DNA of 37,419 nucleotides, from the NCBI GenBank assembly GCA_003246475.1, contig QKAL01000269.1, positions 1 to 37,419 of the forward strand. The letters run 5' to 3'. Positions 7,625 through 32,369 of this stretch are shown here, piece after piece. The notes beneath the pieces are model-generated. The model worked only from the letters and a program-made list of their open reading frames with translations, had not been told where the DNA came from and did not search any database. A program made the position numbers and the translations under genes. This stretch comes from Lentisphaerota bacterium. Its GTDB lineage: Bacteria > Verrucomicrobiota > Lentisphaeria > Victivallales > SZUA-371. How positions within the stretch are numbered: the stretch's first letter is position 1; every line of letters begins with the position of its first letter.

Positions 7625-10030
7625 CTATTCAGCTGCCAGCCTGGTGGCAACCCGTACCGCGTCCAACGCGTCGTTGGAATAGTAAGCGCCGATCTCATCG
7701 GCATATGCCTGGTCGACAACCGCTCCGCCAACCATAAAACGTAGGTTGTCCAGCTTGCGTTCTTTCGCCAGAGCTATCACTTCCTTCATCGCAGTCATCG
7801 TTGTGGTCATTAGCGCTGAAAGCCCGATGATATCGACCTGATGCCGTACCGCTTCATCCAGAATGACCTCAGCGGGAACGTCCTTTCCGAGATCGATAAC
7901 CTCAAAACCATAGTTGCGCAGCATCAGCCCGACAATATTTTTGCCGATATCGTGAATATCACCTTTAACAGTGGCCAGAACCATACGTTTACGCACGTCA
8001 CGTTTGCCGCCGCCTTCCTGAAGCAACGGCTCAAGAACCGCAAAGCCTTTGCGCATGGCGTCGGCGCTCATAATCAACTGCGGCAGAAAATACTCCTTCT
8101 TTTCAAACATCTCACCGACACGGTTGATCGCGGGAATCAAAAAGTCATCCACCAGCTGCTTTGCCGTTAACCCTTTGTCCAACGCCGCCCGTAACGCGGC
8201 TTCGATCATGTCTTCTTCTCCCTGAAGGACACAATTATACACCCGCGGTCCGGGTTCGGCCGCCGTTGCAGTTTCCACAGGTTTGCTTTCCACCCCGCTG
8301 TAGCGCCGCACATAATTGGTCATCTTTCGGTCGCGTCCGTTGAGAACATCAGAAGCCAACATCATTGCCATAATCTCCTCCGAAGAGGGGTTGGCTATCG
8401 CCATATTGAGCCCCCGGCCTATCGCCATTCCAAGAAACGCCGTATTAAGCAAAGGCCGCTGCGGCATCCCGAAACTAACGTTGGACAGCCCACAGACCGT
8501 GTTCACGCCAAATTCCCGACTACACCACTCGATCAGATCCAGAGACACCTGAGCCGCTGCCTGATTGGACGAAACGGTCATGATCAATCCATCCACACAG
8601 ATGTCTGACTTTTCATATCCCAACGCTGCCGCTTTTTCATAAATGTATTTGACCACTTCGATCCGCTCCGCCGCTGTTTCCGGAATTCCCTCATCCCTCA
8701 ACGGCAACAGAATCAGCATGGCACCGTATTTCGCCGCCACCGGCAACATTTTCTCGATACGTTCCTTTTCGGCGGAAATCGAATTGAGCAGCGCTCGCCC
8801 GGGGTATAACCGCAATGCCGCTTCCATAACCTCAAGATTGGTCGAATCAAGGCACAAGGGAGTATCACAGGACTGGGCCAGAACCTCCAGCGTCTTAAGC
8901 ATCATCGCCTTTTCATCAATCCCCGAAAGCCCCATATTGACGTCAAGCAACGCCGCACCTTTCGCCGTCTGCTCCGAAGCGAACTGCCGTACCATATTGA
9001 GTTTTCCCTCGCGCAATTCCGCCTGAAGTGCCTTTTTCCCGGTCGGATTGATCCGCTCACCGATAATGGCAAACGGCTGATCCAGGGCAATTACCCGTGT
9101 TTTTCTGGCTGAAGCAACCACGCCTCCAATAACCGCTCGCGGTACTTGCGGGGAAACTTTTCCGGCAGCTTCCGCCTGACAACGGATATGGTCCGGGGTG
9201 GTCCCGCAACAGCCACCAAGAATGTTCGCCCCTGCGACGGCGAACTCGGCTACAAAGGTACCGAACTCTTCCGGTCCCATACCGAAAACTGTTTTACCGT
9301 TCAATAACCGCGGGACACCGGCATTGGGCTTGGCGATAAGTGGTATTTTTGCGTAAGGCTTCAATGCCCGGACAATCTCAATCATGTTCTGCGGTCCTGT
9401 CGAACAGTTACAGCCAAAAGCATCGGCGCCAAGTGCCTGCAACGTTATCAGAGCGGAGAGCGGATCGTTGCCGGTCAAAGTACGACCGTCCTCGCCAAAC
9501 GTCATAGTCACAATAACCGGCAGATCGCAGCTCTCCCGCACCGCCAGCAGTGCGGCGCGCGCCTCCTGCAGATCCATCATCGTCTCAATCGCGAAACCAT
9601 CAACGCCGCCGTCAAGCAGCGCTTTCACCTGTTCCTTGAAAATAGCAACGGCGTCTTCAAACGGCATTTCGCCGAACGGAGCGACAAATTTTCCCGTCGG
9701 AGCAAGGTCACCGAAAGCCAGTTTGTTCCCGGCCGCCTGGCGCGAAAGTTCCGCCAACCCTCGGTTGATCTCATACAATTTATCCGCTAGTCCAAACTCC
9801 TCAAGTTTGCACCGGTTCCCGCCAAAAGATGGCACATAGACAATATCCGAACCGGCCCGGCAATATCCCTGCTGAACATCAACAATCGCCTGCGGGTTTT
9901 CCAGAACCCATTGTTCGGGACACACTCCCTGAGGCATACCGCGCTTGATAAGTTCAGTTCCGGTCGCGCCATCAAGTATAACAATCTTTTTACCGATTAA
10001 TTTCTTAAAATCTTCTTTCGTCATAATCAT
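7625..10030 (-). CDS. metH: Cobalamin-dependent methionine synthase lacking the reactivation domain
   Basis: An 801-residue enzyme that moves the methyl group of methyltetrahydrofolate through cobalamin to homocysteine. Residues of about 10-290 form the homocysteine/zinc module with GCNCSTG (Cys209) and GGCCGTT (Cys274, Cys275). Residues of about 318-575 form the folate module (FAIIGERINPTGKKA). Residues of about 600-690 form the cobalamin cap, and the B12-binding domain follows with DIHDIGKN (His693 as cobalt ligand). Full-length enterobacterial MetH is near 1200 residues; the fourth, SAM-dependent reactivation module is missing here and is supplied by the gene ending 8 bases upstream. Start at 10030, with an in-frame ATG at 10024 as an alternative. 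Confidence 0.95.
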   Translation of the reverse strand: MIMTKEDFKKLIGKKIVILDGATGTELIKRGMPQGVCPEQWVLENPQAIVDVQQGYCRAGSDIVYVPSFGGNRCKLEEFGLADKLYEINRGLAELSRQAAGNKLAFGDLAPTGKFVAPFGEMPFEDAVAIFKEQVKALLDGGVDGFAIETMMDLQEARAALLAVRESCDLPVIVTMTFGEDGRTLTGNDPLSALITLQALGADAFGCNCSTGPQNMIEIVRALKPYAKIPLIAKPNAGVPRLLNGKTVFGMGPEEFGTFVAEFAVAGANILGGCCGTTPDHIRCQAEAAGKVSPQVPRAVIGGVVASARKTRVIALDQPFAIIGERINPTGKKALQAELREGKLNMVRQFASEQTAKGAALLDVNMGLSGIDEKAMMLKTLEVLAQSCDTPLCLDSTNLEVMEAALRLYPGRALLNSISAEKERIEKMLPVAAKYGAMLILLPLRDEGIPETAAERIEVVKYIYEKAAALGYEKSDICVDGLIMTVSSNQAAAQVSLDLIEWCSREFGVNTVCGLSNVSFGMPQRPLLNTAFLGMAIGRGLNMAIANPSSEEIMAMMLASDVLNGRDRKMTNYVRRYSGVESKPVETATAAEPGPRVYNCVLQGEEDMIEAALRAALDKGLTAKQLVDDFLIPAINRVGEMFEKKEYFLPQLIMSADAMRKGFAVLEPLLQEGGGKRDVRKRMVLATVKGDIHDIGKNIVGLMLRNYGFEVIDLGKDVPAEVILDEAVRHQVDIIGLSALMTTTMTAMKEVIALAKERKLDNLRFMVGGAVVDQAYADEIGAYYSNDALDAVRVATRLAAE

Positions 10031-10038
10031 CCATTATG

Positions 10039-10674
10039 TCAAAGGGTTATCGTCTTTTCTATCCCGGCAAAAGCCGTCACCGACTTCTCGGGTTCGATAA
10101 TCAGGCTTTCCGACAGTCGCAAACCAAATTGCTCAAGCCGTAAAATCCTGAATATATCGCGTTGAACCGCTAATGCCAAATCGGAATATCCGGGGGAAAA
10201 GCGTTTCCGGGTAAGTTTTTCCCCGGCACGGCTCAAATGCGATGCCATATAATGCTGAAGCCAGTCCATTGCCGCATCTGCAGATTCGCTGCCCACCGCA
10301 TCATAAATCGCACCGGCAGCGCCATCGCCGGCAGCGAGAGCCTGCGACGACGCCTGTGAAATATCCGGTCCGACACTCGCCGCCGCCAACCACAGCGCAT
10401 GACTGTCACACAGCAGCGCCGCCAACGCCCGGCTTTCTATCACCGTCCCGTCATCAAGCCGCAACGCCATCGAATCGTTCTCGACGATCCCGACCCGGGC
10501 CCAACAGCCACGAGGACGACACAAGGCAAAACCGGATTCAATAATTCCATCAATCCGCGTCGCATGCCCGTGAAACATAACATTCCGATGCCGGTTATAT
10601 CCCAGGCGCGACATTATCTCCCGATCCGGACGCCTTATGGGAACGATGTTTATTATATTGATATCGGCGGACAT
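10039..10674 (-). CDS. Stand-alone methionine synthase reactivation domain protein
   Basis: A protein of 211 residues that matches the C-terminal SAM-binding activation domain of MetH (Met_synt_B12). The key stretch is RFSPGYSDLALAVQRDIF, followed by GLRLSESLIIEPEKSVTAFAGI, the counterpart of the R-x-x-PGY core that binds S-adenosylmethionine. The domain normally supports reductive remethylation of oxidised cobalamin. Here it is encoded separately and lies 8 bases upstream of metH on the same strand, so the two products very likely work together. I chose the ATG at 10674 because AGAGGG lies 6 bases before it; the upstream ATG at 10704 lacks a ribosome site. Similar split systems are known, for example in Thermotoga. 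Confidence 0.85.
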   Translation of the reverse strand: MSADINIINIVPIRRPDREIMSRLGYNRHRNVMFHGHATRIDGIIESGFALCRPRGCWARVGIVENDSMALRLDDGTVIESRALAALLCDSHALWLAAASVGPDISQASSQALAAGDGAAGAIYDAVGSESADAAMDWLQHYMASHLSRAGEKLTRKRFSPGYSDLALAVQRDIFRILRLEQFGLRLSESLIIEPEKSVTAFAGIEKTITL

Positions 10675-10712
10675 ATTATTCCCTCTTGCTGAGGTTGCTT
10701 TCATAAAAACGT

Positions 10713-18781: not shown

Positions 18782-19579
18782 TCAGGGGATGACGCTTCCT
18801 TTACGGAATTTCGCCGGACTGATGTAGCGGAACTTGGTAAAGGCGCGGGTAAAATAATAGCGGTCGCAGAAGCCGGTGTTCTCCGCGATCTCGTCAATGC
18901 TCTGGTCCGAATGCAACAACAACGCCGCTGCCTGACGCAACCGCTCTTCCAGAATATATTGCTGCGGAGTCAAACCGAAAGCAGCGTTGAAACGCCGCAC
19001 GAAGATCGTACTGCTGACGCCAAGCCTTTTAGCCATATCGGCATTTTTATGCTCCAGTTTAAGGTTTTTCCGTATGTCGCGGCGAATATCGAGCAGGCGC
19101 GGATCGATCAGATGTTCATCAACCAGATACTCGTCGGGGATTTTTTCCAGTGCCGCAGCGCACAAGGCCATCGCACTCATCGGCATAGAATAACTGTTTT
19201 CGTTCTCCGGCAAACGCGCGATCAGTTGTTCCGCCAATATCGAAAATACCGGGCTTTCGGGGAAATCGAATATTGCGTCGCTGCAGTTGCAATAGCTGTC
19301 GCTGACCAGAAAATGCATGACGATTTTGTCCAGCACAACATCATTCTTGCGGCAGGAAAACGGTGTCTCCGGAGCAATCAAATAGACATGACCGGGCTCC
19401 AGGGCAATTTCCCGCCCCTGCCAGGTGATATATCCGCTACGGGAAAGAGGATAATAGAGCCGCCAGAACGGCATCTGCAGCCGATCGGCGGAAAAATCCC
19501 AAACCTGACTCAGAGAACGCCCGCAGACCATTATCTCAAGTCGCGTATATGCGATTTGTCCTGTACATTTATCCGGCAT
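18782..19579 (-). CDS. AraC-family regulator 1 of the duplicated set
   Basis: A protein of 265 residues, paralogous to those at 22245-23039 and 26830-27630. The sensor domain starts IAYTRLEIMVCGRS and has MPFWRLYYPLS, PGHVYLIAPETPFSCR, LDKIVMHF, and a conserved YCNC (about residue 105). The C-terminal 100 residues carry two helix-turn-helix motifs, AKRLGVSSTIFVRRFNAAFG and SIDEIAENTGFCDRYYFTRAF, followed by the typical SPAKFRKG end. I chose the ATG at 19579 because its MPDKCTGQIAYTRLEI lines up with the paralogues; a GTG at 19639 would run through the upstream terminator hairpin. It probably activates the GH39A unit directly downstream in response to a sugar. Confidence 0.9.
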   Translation of the reverse strand: MPDKCTGQIAYTRLEIMVCGRSLSQVWDFSADRLQMPFWRLYYPLSRSGYITWQGREIALEPGHVYLIAPETPFSCRKNDVVLDKIVMHFLVSDSYCNCSDAIFDFPESPVFSILAEQLIARLPENENSYSMPMSAMALCAAALEKIPDEYLVDEHLIDPRLLDIRRDIRKNLKLEHKNADMAKRLGVSSTIFVRRFNAAFGLTPQQYILEERLRQAAALLLHSDQSIDEIAENTGFCDRYYFTRAFTKFRYISPAKFRKGSVIP

Positions 19580-19614
19580 ATCCACCCGATCGTATGGCTG
19601 TTTGAGAAAATGAT

Positions 19615-19641
19615 AAGTGACGGCATCTAACGCCGTCACTT
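19615..19641 (-). terminator. Intrinsic terminator after the GH5 gene
   Basis: A perfect 10-bp stem, AAGTGACGGC (19615-19624) with GCCGTCACTT (19632-19641), and a 7-base loop. On the minus strand it is followed by ATCATTTTCTC, so the T-tract is imperfect. It lies between the GH5 stop codon and the next AraC gene. Confidence 0.65.
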
Positions 19642-19683: not shown

Positions 19684-21408
19684 TTATTTGGCGGCGACCT
19701 CGGATTTCCTGACAGAATCCAACACCTGACGAACGGAATTCCAGAGTGTCGTAGCTATTGCCGTCATATTTTTACAACCGGAAATGTCCACATATTCTGC
19801 GTCATGCTCACGAGCCGTCGCAGCAATCAGCGCGCCTTGAGGAACTTTCCCGCCCAGACAGAATATCCGGGAATGCGGATAGAGCTGCCGCAGGTCGGAC
19901 AACAGTTTACCATAAGGTTTGCCGAAACTGCCGGGATTGACCTCTCCTTTAAAATCGTCACCAATATTTACGATGATGATGTCGGCAATGTCGGGAATGG
20001 GATGGCGCAATCCGCTCAATTTTTCCGGTGTAATCAGCGAAGTATAGGCAATTTCCGGTTTCGATCCGTTATAGCCGACCAGTTGCCGCTGCAAAATACT
20101 TCCATAATTCCCGGCGCTCTTCCGAACACCGCCATTATCCTGCAAATTGTCCTCAACCACGAATACCTTCCGTATCTTTGCGGGCGAAAATGACTTCTGC
20201 TGTTCCAGATTGCGCGACATGAATTTCAGAACCTCGGCGCCGCGTTTGGACAGACCGCTTTTAATTGTCGTAGTCTCCGGCGAATGATTGATCGAGGCAT
20301 ATGCCTGATAGCGTACACCGTTCCTGGTCATACCCTCATTGACGATACTCTGAAACAGTTCCTGCTTACCGTTTTTAGTCTTGTAAACGTCGGCGAGATC
20401 ATTACATTCAATATTCCAGATCTCAGCCTCCTTCATGCCATGCATGTTCCAGTCCCAGCCAAAATCCTCAAATATCTCCATTACCTCACGAAGATATTTA
20501 TCGCCGTTCGGAGCATAACGGGCCACGCCAAATTCACCCACATGCAGACGTACACCGTATTTTTTCTGAAACTCCCGGGCCTGATATAGCTCGGCAATGA
20601 TCCGTTTCTTGTCCCACATGCCACCGGCTCCGTCATTGAATTTGCCGGGCCACGACCGGATTTCATCACCAGAATACCCCTGATGAGTGTAAAGAAACGG
20701 CTGCCACATGTGAAGCGTATAGATTACGTTATCACACGGATCCTTTATCGGCGGAAAATTGCTGAACCCGTACCAGAGCTGTCCGGGACCGCTCGCCACC
20801 AGGATCGGATGAGACTTGTCGATCTTCCGGATCTCATCGGTCAGTTTCTGCGCCCATTGAGGCCATACTTTCGGCCCCTGCGGAAAATCCGCCCAGTTCA
20901 GCGGTTCGTTGAACAATTCCAGCCAGATATCCTGTTCCGGATATTGCGCGGTGATTGCCGCAATCCTTTTCCAGACCTTTTCCATGTCGTCATAATTACT
21001 CTTCTGTTTCCACCACCAGTCGCTGTAGTAGTTTCTTTCCTCGGTCTCGTTGTTGAATTTTTTCGCCGGAGGATTGGGCGAATCGGTGGGCGGCAGATGA
21101 AGATCCACTATCACCGGCAAATCCAGTTTACGGCAGTTCTCCAGCATTTCCGGCAGCGAAGCAAGCAAGCGTTCCATCGCCTCTGCACTGGTACCAACTT
21201 TATACTCCCATTTCTTCCATCCCGGGCACATCATATAGCGCACCTGGTTGGCATGCCATTTCTCCTTGACCTCCTTGAGTTGTTCGAAGTCATAGAAACA
21301 GACTGTGAAACCACGGTAACGCGCCTTCTTCGCCTCGGCAAAGGCAGGTATAGTTATTATTACCGCCAGCAAAAAGAGACAAGCGGTCCGAGTAATCTTT
21401 CCCATCAT
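19684..21408 (-). CDS. Secreted GH5-family glycosidase with a degenerate SGNH-like C-terminal domain
   Basis: A 574-residue protein with a signal peptide (about residues 8-25). Residues of about 28-370 are a GH5-type barrel: IVDLHLPP, WLELFNEPLNW with acid/base Glu168, YTLHMWQPF, and RLHVGEFGV with nucleophile Glu292, as in cellulases and mannanases. Residues of about 413-565 look like an SGNH-hydrolase fold (KVFVVEDN, then ADIIIVNIGDDF, then SRIFCLGG), comparable to the esterase domain fused to GH5 in some clostridial enzymes. However, no GDS motif is seen, the GTND block reads GDDF, and no D-x-x-H is present near the end, so the domain may be a binding module. GAGGA precedes two adjacent ATGs (21408, 21405). 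It follows the pseudopilin gene by 64 bases. Confidence 0.85.
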   Translation of the reverse strand: MMGKITRTACLFLLAVIITIPAFAEAKKARYRGFTVCFYDFEQLKEVKEKWHANQVRYMMCPGWKKWEYKVGTSAEAMERLLASLPEMLENCRKLDLPVIVDLHLPPTDSPNPPAKKFNNETEERNYYSDWWWKQKSNYDDMEKVWKRIAAITAQYPEQDIWLELFNEPLNWADFPQGPKVWPQWAQKLTDEIRKIDKSHPILVASGPGQLWYGFSNFPPIKDPCDNVIYTLHMWQPFLYTHQGYSGDEIRSWPGKFNDGAGGMWDKKRIIAELYQAREFQKKYGVRLHVGEFGVARYAPNGDKYLREVMEIFEDFGWDWNMHGMKEAEIWNIECNDLADVYKTKNGKQELFQSIVNEGMTRNGVRYQAYASINHSPETTTIKSGLSKRGAEVLKFMSRNLEQQKSFSPAKIRKVFVVEDNLQDNGGVRKSAGNYGSILQRQLVGYNGSKPEIAYTSLITPEKLSGLRHPIPDIADIIIVNIGDDFKGEVNPGSFGKPYGKLLSDLRQLYPHSRIFCLGGKVPQGALIAATAREHDAEYVDISGCKNMTAIATTLWNSVRQVLDSVRKSEVAAK

Positions 21409-21472: not shown

Positions 21473-22090
21473 TTACTTGCCCCGCCAGTTGGTGTAGTCA
21501 GAGGGCGGAACCGTCGGCGCAACATGCCCGTCATGAAACAATACGTTTTTACTGAATGAATGTCCGCGATACATGAATATGGCCGTATCCATGATTACCG
21601 CGCCGCTGGCCCAGACATAATACCCGGTCATGCTGGCATACCAGCAGGAGACGTCCGGCTGGAGGCATTCGTTCAAATTGTACGTCATCGTCGGCCGGGT
21701 CAGTTTGGCAACCTTCAATTGCCGCAGAAAACTCTGGTGCACATCAGTACCGGTTGAATTATAGTCGGCAGTCACCGCAGTGTTCATGCCGTAGGAGGTG
21801 ATGTCCGCATTACCAAGATGACTTGGACAACGCAGATGCTTGTTCCCTCTCCCGGTATAGGCCAGAACGCCGCGTTCATACGTCTGCCAGTCGTAACCGG
21901 AGGCATTGTAACCGTCATAATCGTTCTGATAGAGAGTAAAACCATTACCCAGCGTCTTCAGGGTATTGACACAGGAAATTGCCTTCGCCTTGTTTCGTGC
22001 GGAATTCAGCGCCGGCAGCAGCATCGCAGCCAGAATAGCGATAATCGCTATTACCACCAGGAGCTCTATGAGTGTGAATTTTTTACACAT
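21473..22090 (-). CDS. Pseudopilin-like protein (GH5 unit)
   Basis: A 205-residue protein beginning [20 protein letters not shown], the prepilin methylation segment, with Lys instead of Gly before the processed Phe. [25 protein letters not shown] follows, as in the other two copies. The rest is a globular domain rich in Tyr and Trp, with [15 protein letters not shown] near the end corresponding to the H-x9-DG motif of DUF1559-type proteins. GGAAGG lies 6 bases before the ATG. It is the first gene of the unit driven by the operator-promoter at 22152-22207 and is followed by GH5. Pairing with a glycosidase suggests a role in export, surface display or substrate binding of that enzyme; none of these is shown by sequence. 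Confidence 0.87.
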
Positions 22091-30339: not shown

Positions 30340-32358
30340 TTAAGCTATAATCAAGCGCATATCCCAACCGGCAAACGAAGGAAGGACAAACCGCTGACAG
30401 GCCCCGTCAGCCCCCTTTGATTCGACCGTAACTTCTTTACAATCCATATCTATCACGGTGATCCGGCTCTTCGCCGTCAATACCATAAGTTCAACGCCCT
30501 CCGCAGGGTCCAGACAGGCATTGAGGACGGTAATCACCAGACGCCCCGGTTCAGGACGTTTGGCCCAGACCGCCATCTTATGCGGAGAAGCGATATATGC
30601 CGGGAGCGTGTCCTTGGACAAATAACGCATCAACTGCCGCAACTGTAATGTCTTGGCGGTACTTTGCAGAAACGTCCACGGATAATATCCGGCAACCGCC
30701 ACCCGACCACCCAGCGCATTGGAGAATATCCCAAGCCCACAGGATGACACCTCATCGCCACTGTAATCAATCAATCGGGCCAGTGAATCCGCACCCTCTT
30801 CTACCGGAACCATCTTCGCCGCCGGAACACCCCAGAACAAAAATGACTGCCTGCCATCGCGCATCCGCCCGGCCAATCCACCGTTAAGCTGATGCGGCAG
30901 GTTTTCTTCAATGCAGTCACTTTTTTCCCAGCCGTCAACCCGGAAACCGGCATAGCGCTCCAGACCTCGCTCACGCAGACGTTCCAGCGCCCCGCCATCC
31001 ATGTAAACTCCACCGGACAAACTGTGTCTAAGTTCGTCATCGGAAAGAGCCATGATCCGATCTCCAGAAAACAGAGACACCAGAGCATTCTCCGGACCAT
31101 ATGCTATTGGCAGCCCGGACTCCCAAAATTCTTTGGCGCAACCTGCCGCAAGACTCCAGGAATTTAACCGCGGCCAATCCCCCCCGGAAATATCACCAGT
31201 AATATAGGTGTCAGCATTCCAACCGGAATGAATGCCTATCGGAAGCGCCCGTTTGCCCTCTCTTACCATCAGGTCATAAAAATCACGATGCCGCGCTATT
31301 TCCGTTATCAGCGGGTCGTATTCCTCCAACCGGTCGGTGGCAAAAAAAGGCAGCACATTATAGGCAGCTCCCGTACATCCGGCGGCTATGTAAGCGGCGG
31401 TTTCCAGCACCACCGCCCGCCGGGATTTGCGTAACTGCTGATACGGAAAATTTTCTATCTCCGATTGGATGTTGACGACGCTTTCCGACATCCTTGATAT
31501 CTGACGGCCAATGTCGTGCGCCTTGTCGATCATGCCGCTCAACTGCGCATCATCATAAAAACCACCACCTGGACGCCAGCGTACCGCTGTACCGTTTTCA
31601 CCCGCCAGCACCCTGGCATGACCGGCAAAATCATAACGAGTGTAGAGCTGCTCTCCCGACATCAGCCCCAGTTCCATTCCGGGTTTTATCGCGTGAACCG
31701 CTTTCTCGATCACCGCCAGCAGCCGGTTAATGGTATCGGCATTGTGTTGCAGCCACTGCCGCCGCAATTCAAGCTTTGCCGCATCGTCGCCGGAGTTGAA
31801 TGCATAACGCAATTCTTTGCGGCCATACGACTGTCCGCATTCTCCGGCAAATATCTTTAGGCAATTATCACAGAAACAGGTTTCACTGATCGGCATGTGG
31901 CCGAATAACCGGATATCATCGTCAATCCAGATATGATCCGGATCTGCCGAAGCAATCAGCGTATAGAGCTCACGCACATATTCCAGTACATGCGGATCAT
32001 TGGGGCAGAAAGACCCGGCACAGGTCTTGCCGTCCATATCCATCAATTGCTGATAGTCGCCGGACAAAGAGTTTGCCAGATTCTCATTGTGGTGACCGAT
32101 GGTGGAGAGTATGTTGATACCCGCCCGGAGCCCGGCTTCCCGCGCCTGGACTATTCTTTTGCGCAATACAGGCACAATTTGGCGAACCGTCTCCAGCGGC
32201 AATGGTGGATGAGTTTCACTGGTAAAAAACGTAATCTCCTCCGCCGTCTTTCGATGCCGCAGCATTAACGCCAGAAGATTGTCAAACTGGCGGTCATTAT
32301 TCCATAGCGGCACCCCGATGCGAAAAGAAATAAATGCCTTTTTCAATGTCGGCGACAT
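30340..32358 (-). CDS. Unclassified TIM-barrel-like protein, possible glycoside hydrolase
   Basis: A protein of 672 residues, no signal peptide, not a family I recognise with certainty. The N-terminal 330 residues read as a (beta/alpha)8 barrel: AEEITFFTSE, GLRAGINILSTIGHH, DPDHIWIDDDIRL, then a cysteine group CFCDNCLKIF, MELGLMSGE, and VNIQSEIENFPY. The acidic clusters IDDD and SEIEN fall where GH-A-type barrels place catalytic residues. The cysteine group recalls the metal site in some GH42-like proteins. The C-terminal part looks like a Rossmann-like and beta domain similar to GH42 trimerisation regions. ATG at 32358 is chosen; a TTG at 32364 is possible. It starts 11 bases after the GH116-like stop codon, so the two are translated from one message. 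Confidence 0.55.
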   Translation of the reverse strand: MSPTLKKAFISFRIGVPLWNNDRQFDNLLALMLRHRKTAEEITFFTSETHPPLPLETVRQIVPVLRKRIVQAREAGLRAGINILSTIGHHNENLANSLSGDYQQLMDMDGKTCAGSFCPNDPHVLEYVRELYTLIASADPDHIWIDDDIRLFGHMPISETCFCDNCLKIFAGECGQSYGRKELRYAFNSGDDAAKLELRRQWLQHNADTINRLLAVIEKAVHAIKPGMELGLMSGEQLYTRYDFAGHARVLAGENGTAVRWRPGGGFYDDAQLSGMIDKAHDIGRQISRMSESVVNIQSEIENFPYQQLRKSRRAVVLETAAYIAAGCTGAAYNVLPFFATDRLEEYDPLITEIARHRDFYDLMVREGKRALPIGIHSGWNADTYITGDISGGDWPRLNSWSLAAGCAKEFWESGLPIAYGPENALVSLFSGDRIMALSDDELRHSLSGGVYMDGGALERLRERGLERYAGFRVDGWEKSDCIEENLPHQLNGGLAGRMRDGRQSFLFWGVPAAKMVPVEEGADSLARLIDYSGDEVSSCGLGIFSNALGGRVAVAGYYPWTFLQSTAKTLQLRQLMRYLSKDTLPAYIASPHKMAVWAKRPEPGRLVITVLNACLDPAEGVELMVLTAKSRITVIDMDCKEVTVESKGADGACQRFVLPSFAGWDMRLIIA

Positions 32359-32369
32359 ATGCAATATAC

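Follow-up and report, generated by a model that had tools for sequence, protein, structure and literature searches.

The gene P0001 of a Lentisphaerota bacterium, which was studied here within a window of 37,419 nucleotides (the whole stretch of DNA analysed), encodes a GH5 enzyme with a C-terminal tail that is supported by its sequence as a dead SGNH domain with lost catalytic residues. This tail is rather probably a pseudoesterase that has been retained for a structural or docking role, but not via its old pocket. The preliminary description of a GH5 enzyme fused to an SGNH-like domain without catalytic motifs was borne out by the PF00150 match, the SGNH fold model and the motif columns. It had given no strand; the analysis confirmed a genuine ORF, encoded on the minus strand. 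The protein begins with a signal-peptide-like stretch, followed by the GH5 domain and then the SGNH-fold domain (Table 1), and has no match in NCBIfam.

Table 1. P0001, its domains and motif sites, and the adjacent genes (positions refer to the window).
Feature	Position	Strand	Basis or remark
GH5 + pseudo-SGNH gene (P0001)	19684..21408, stop included	minus	574 aa; translation; ortholog L004/L032
Signal-peptide-like N-terminus, residues ~1-26	21331..21408	minus	MMGKITRTACLFLLAVIITIPAFAEA, read directly from sequence
GH5 catalytic domain, residues ~28-404, E168 acid/base and E292 nucleophile	20197..21327	minus	Pfam, phmmer, motifs, Foldseek
Low-confidence loop (probably disordered), residues 352-382	20263..20355	minus	pLDDT <50 in the full-length model
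Putative pseudo-SGNH domain, residues 411-573	19690..20178	minus	Predicted fold, SGNH structure matches, profile score
Degenerate block I, E419-D420-N421 replacing GNS/GDS	20146..20154	minus	Alignment; ADN in the ortholog
Site of deleted block II loop, residues ~426-429	20122..20133	minus	GW..WGMAA columns gapped in P0001 and L004 only
Degenerate block III, G483-D484-D485-F486	19951..19962	minus	Oxyanion Asn replaced by Asp; GEKY in the ortholog
Lys521 at a column with Trp in 98% of catalytic-type rows	19846..19848	minus	Aligned with CtCE2 Trp746
Site of deleted block V loop (WHPxD), residues ~543-544	19777..19782	minus	Family alignment
Upstream gene, 205 aa, prepilin-type N-terminal motif	21473..22090	minus	Ortholog directly preceded by a counterpart (76% identical)
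Downstream gene, AraC-family regulator	18782..19639	minus	

The GH5 part of P0001 appears intact. PF00150 (Cellulase/GH5) matches residues 40-321 with an E-value of 5.4e-19 and 69.2 bits at a cut-off of 23.5 (Pfam), and both catalytic glutamates, the acid/base E168 in an NEP motif and the nucleophile E292 in a GEF motif on β7, are present and align with the Glu residues of 8b3y. The nearest solved GH5 structures by sequence are 8b3y, 8ag9 and 8anx with E-values of about 1e-30 (phmmer; 2.7e-30 for 8b3y), and the full-length model of P0001 (pLDDT 82.7, pTM 0.82) matches TtEnd5A 8anx among solved structures with an E-value of 6.4e-20 (Foldseek). TtEnd5A of Thermogutta terrifontis (8AG9, 8ANX) is thus the closest solved GH5 by sequence and fold, with 23% identity in the structural alignment, but unlike P0001 its matched chains have no SGNH domain. 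The low-confidence loop precedes the last GH5 helix, which comprises residues 388-403 in the full-length model. This helix (about 388-404) was read as the end of the GH5 domain, because stand-alone GH5 relatives such as L005 finish in a similar segment. According to the model, the SGNH-like domain would start at most about eight residues past this helix and be joined almost directly.

For the tail, structure prediction and fold search point to an SGNH fold and not to another one. Residues 395-574 were modelled by AlphaFold2 from an alignment of SGNH relatives with a pLDDT of 88.9 and a pTM of 0.87, and strands and helices alternate in SGNH order. The SGNH-like order that had been proposed for residues of about 413-565 was therefore recovered, but the limits had to be shifted to about 411-573. 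The best solved matches of the tail model are the CE2 esterases 4xvh, 2waa and 2wab with E-values of 7e-6 to 3e-5, followed by other SGNH proteins (Foldseek). Moreover, all 50 of the 50 entries listed by VIA-align are of the SGNH/GDSL type, with the highest Z-scores for 4m8k (14.0) and for CtCE2, 2wab (13.8, 151 residues, rmsd 3.3). PF13472 (Lipase_GDSL_2) matches residues 429-526 with an E-value of 8e-5, and its 23.6 bits are under the curated cut-off of 32.9; PF25182 (NonGDSL lipase-like) is absent among the Pfam matches of P0001 to an E-value of 0.5. Against a profile of 48 catalytic-type family rows, from which P0001 and its ortholog were excluded, the tail scores 42.6 bits and the ortholog tail 42.1, whereas the best of 2,000 shuffled tails (1,448 of which were reported by the program) reached 8.4. 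Because of this distance to the shuffle maximum, the homology of the tail to the catalytic-type SGNH family can be regarded as secure at the sequence level.

The relatives of the tail form an SGNH family of Verrucomicrobiota/Lentisphaerota with GNS, GEN and WHP motifs, which profile A1 (E ≤1e-6) detected in 54 of 387 genomes sampled from the phylum and in 26 of 137 from the order. After removal of six matches that were weak or partial (L091, L093, L094, L095, L096, L129), 76 domain rows were counted, among which the block I Ser is present in 68, the block V His in 67 and the block II Trp in 74; 57 of these rows are included in alignment A2, which served for folding and conservation. Catalytic-type members read GNS..HG, GW..WGMAAS..DY.H, GEN or GEH, and HP.D.GM, often as WHP. 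In 17 of the 76 rows the block III Asn is replaced by His, with Ser and the block V His kept (e.g., L002, L084, L085, L112), and these GEH rows represent, judged by their motifs, an unusual SGNH subgroup.

Conservation reaches 94% or more at 18 positions of the 48 catalytic-type rows; of these, P0001 has retained two (M548, A552) and its ortholog one. As described before, there is no GDS, its position being occupied by E419-D420-N421 with Asn421 in place of the catalytic Ser. GDD does stand in place of GTND, with the oxyanion Asn replaced by Asp485 in P0001 and by Lys in the ortholog, and the final D-x-x-H is missing with the block V loop, the column of the catalytic His being deleted in both proteins. 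Furthermore, the near-invariant Trp of the family is replaced by Lys521. Beyond these substitutions, two loops of the relatives (GW..WGMAAS in block II, WHPxD in block V) are deleted in both orthologs, and the substitutes differ between the two, EDN and ADN in block I, GDD and GEK in block III. With the Ser replaced and the His deleted, the intact catalytic triad that was looked for is not available in the tail. It can thus be assumed that the tail is without ester hydrolysis and that the chemistry is done by the GH5 domain.

P0001 is a decayed variant of a known GH5-SGNH architecture. Motif-intact GH5-SGNH fusions are L002 (758 aa), encoded in the same genome as P0001, and L012 in another genome of the order, and L021 carries the two domains in reversed order (SGNH-GH5). 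All three resemble P0001 in combining the same two families in one ORF with an SGNH domain of the same wider family, but have intact GNS and WHP motifs and PF13472 matches above the cut-off (37-50 bits). A topology in which the dead tail shares one clade with the SGNH domains of both L002 and L012 (the latter as row L084) was rejected by the AU test (p 9e-8). Additionally, the six closest GH5 relatives of P0001 (42-44% identical, E ≤6.3e-68) have open frames of 357-432 aa, which are too short for the tail. Due to both observations, the fusion in P0001 probably arose separately from those in L002 and L012. In the tree, the tail clusters with SGNH domains from arabinofuranosidase-like fusions (95/82); long branches give this grouping little weight. 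A catalytic-type SGNH domain is located before an arabinofuranosidase-like enzyme in the 900-aa protein L035 (G000:C255, 2330-5032), behind a prepilin-type gene.

The same family also comprises seven dead SGNH lipoproteins of related genomes that are encoded in tandem (L033, L034, L041, L042, L043, L044, L045), of which all seven have lost the catalytic His and six the Ser (GDA or GDG). A joint origin with the dead tail was neither shown nor rejected by the AU test (p 0.32). However, these proteins are free-standing and keep the pocket frame of W..GMAA, Asp, His and Trp, which the tail does not. Tandem same-strand SGNH pairs were found in seven genomes (L033 at 1233-2576, L034 at 1244-2560, L041, L045, L042/L103, L044/L101, L043), and the partner has GNS and WHP; it is complete in six of them, and G078 holds only a fragment at a contig end. 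The dead member resembles a conserved pseudoesterase that is paired with a catalytic-type protein, and a binding-only role fits it better than the tail of P0001.

The only known full-length ortholog of P0001, L004/L032, is 71% identical over 572 residues and is encoded by a Victivallales bacterium of another genus of the same family. It represents the same locus, because the same 205-aa prepilin-type gene adjoins upstream. Its tail is equally without catalytic residues and pocket loops. Since the loss is common to both genera, it must be old and is not a sequencing error. A scan of genome contigs for further orthologs gave one locus, which was the same ortholog, and among the examined rows from profile searches in 387 genomes of the phylum and 137 of the order, a sampled part of the phylum, no third GH5-dead-tail protein was recognised; as a full match the tail occurs in two of the 137 genomes of the order.

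Between the orthologs, the GH5 domains are 84% identical and the dead tails 48%. Raw pN/pS with Fisher's test was used, as dN/dS by NG86, YN00 and LWL85 (Biopython) failed or saturated. For the dead tail pN is 0.338 against a saturated pS of 0.809 (p 7e-18), and with a pN of 0.086 for GH5 the tail diverges about four times faster at amino-acid-changing sites, i.e., it is about four times less constrained. Both copies are free of stops and frameshifts, and their reading frames continue to the same C-terminus, with a gap of one residue between them. Judged from this one ortholog pair, the remaining core of the tail appears to be under purifying selection.

This constraint seems to sit away from the old pocket. 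The former pocket loops (420-434, 482-489, 520-524, 543-547) are identical at 9 of 33 positions (27%) compared to 68 of 128 (53%) in the rest of the tail (p 0.011). Among catalytic-type members, 199 pairs of 38-62% identity, which share sequences and are therefore descriptive rather than a strict test, average 65% identity in the loop columns and 40% in the other columns. The loops fall below the rest in only one of these pairs with a difference of -0.02, compared to -0.26 for P0001 and its ortholog. For the tandem dead paralogs, compared in 14 pairs, loops (59%) and rest (57%) are about equally conserved. The best-kept parts of the tail are strand 1 (7/8), residues 461-481 (15/21) and the helix after strand 3 (13/20).

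The idea that the domain is kept for binding had been derived from GH5-esterase fusions in which the esterase also binds cellulose, which is correct for a GH5-linked CE2 esterase (PMC2661963). The Clostridium thermocellum endoglucanase E (CtCel5C-CtCE2; 2WAB, 2WAO) likewise combines a GH5 and an SGNH-fold esterase in one secreted protein. In this protein, the esterase cleft is the site of cellulose binding, the linked GH5 is potentiated by CtCE2, and catalysis depends on Ser612 and His791 as a Ser-His dyad without Asp, with Asn705 as oxyanion residue, Trp790 beside the catalytic His and Trp746 as added aromatic (PMC2661963). In our alignment, chain position 224 is Asn705, the near-invariant Trp of the family falls on Trp746 and WHP on Trp790-His791. 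The match to Trp746 is less sure, since the Trp746 loop reportedly varies among CE2 enzymes (PMC2661963). The jelly-roll domain of CtCE2 is also missing in P0001, as the full-length model has no beta-sandwich between the last GH5 helix and the tail.

The tail could thus be a carbohydrate-binding module, a dead SGNH domain that targets the GH5 to polysaccharide as CtCE2 does for its linked cellulase. This would be in line with the cellulose-binding CtCE2 among its nearest fold relatives, with the potentiation of the linked GH5 described there, and with the secreted GH5 of P0001 having no other binding module. However, the counterparts of all five CtCE2 residues are replaced or deleted (Asn421 at Ser612, Lys521 at Trp746, a deletion at Trp790), and conservation within the tail is lowest in the former pocket loops. 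A comparison of the pockets, as had been proposed, left none of these CtCE2 counterparts in the tail, and retention of the domain solely for pocket binding of the CE2 type is not supported by the sequence. The tail may bind glycan on another surface, and altogether we regard the binding module as unlikely. Slightly less likely still is an evolutionary leftover, i.e., a GH5-fused esterase that is decaying and will be lost. The faster divergence of the tail also fits slow decay, and even pocket-forming residues are gone, unlike in the tandem dead paralogs, but pN is far under pS, both copies have stayed open to the same C-terminus, and the core is folded with confidence by AlphaFold2.

Even for a tail that is still catalytic with a rebuilt or different active site there is a precedent, as the Ser-His dyad of CtCE2 indicates that SGNH-type enzymes can work without Asp (PMC2661963). 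Here, neither Ser nor His is left, the oxyanion position is occupied by Asp or Lys, and the substitutes differ between the orthologs, which makes this explanation very improbable. A tail that is no SGNH domain, but a different alpha/beta domain with three layers and a similar order of elements, could explain why the Pfam score stays under the cut-off and the best Foldseek TM-scores are only about 0.5-0.6; with a profile score that high above all shuffled tails and exclusively SGNH/GDSL-type entries in VIA-align, it is hardly conceivable.

We therefore prefer the pseudoesterase that is retained as a structural or docking module. A secreted GH5 beta-glycanase would have gained a C-terminal SGNH esterase from the family widespread in the phylum. 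The catalytic Ser, the oxyanion Asn, the catalytic His and two pocket-lining loops would have been lost before the divergence of the two known host lineages, and the tail would then have been kept as a compact module via its core and the β3/helix face (461-509). The sequences themselves show the ancestry of the tail, its missing motifs and loops, the intact motifs of GH5 and purifying selection on the core, and the retention through core and face is what we infer from them. More tentatively, it is possible that the new conserved face 461-509 (PIPDxAD, SFGKPYxKLLxxLRQxYP), which like all surface and interface assignments on the tail is based on secondary-structure segments, serves docking to GH5 or a partner protein.

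In the literature on SGNH pseudoenzymes and non-catalytic esterases, searched by titles and abstract openings, which is no proof of absence, no dead SGNH domain on a GH5 was found. P0001 is a modest but clean case of a change from enzyme to pseudoenzyme. In CtCE2 the esterase active site gained a binding role with catalysis kept, whereas in the tail of P0001 catalysis and pocket are gone and the fold remains. Together with its motif-intact relatives in the same genome it offers a natural series on what SGNH domains contribute to GH5 beyond deacetylation. If the docking face is true, the SGNH family of the Victivallales would, with the tandem pairs of dead and catalytic-type members, be a repeated source of pseudoesterases. 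For annotation, the tail of P0001 should not be named esterase.

The surroundings of P0001 show repeated sets of an AraC regulator, a small prepilin-type (N_methyl) protein and a glycoside hydrolase between 13246 and 27630 (26830/26043/23187, 22245/21473/19684 and 18782/15820/15091). The genome of P0001 has 72 N_methyl matches in 3.2 Mb, and a prepilin-like ORF is present in 17 of 30 GH5 loci of about 2.7-4.7 kb each, always on the GH5 strand. A dedicated pseudopilin per hydrolase is a possibility; a search of the literature on Victivallales, glycoside hydrolases and pseudopilins found nothing on such a pairing. Between a GH95-like and a GH116-like gene lies an ORF of 674 aa with a TTG start (30340-32364), which has no match in Pfam to an E-value of 0.01 and in NCBIfam to 0.1. 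Furthermore, the methionine synthase MetH at 7625-10704 looks split into a protein of 801 aa without activation domain and one of 221 aa with a weak match to it (PF02965, E 0.0014).
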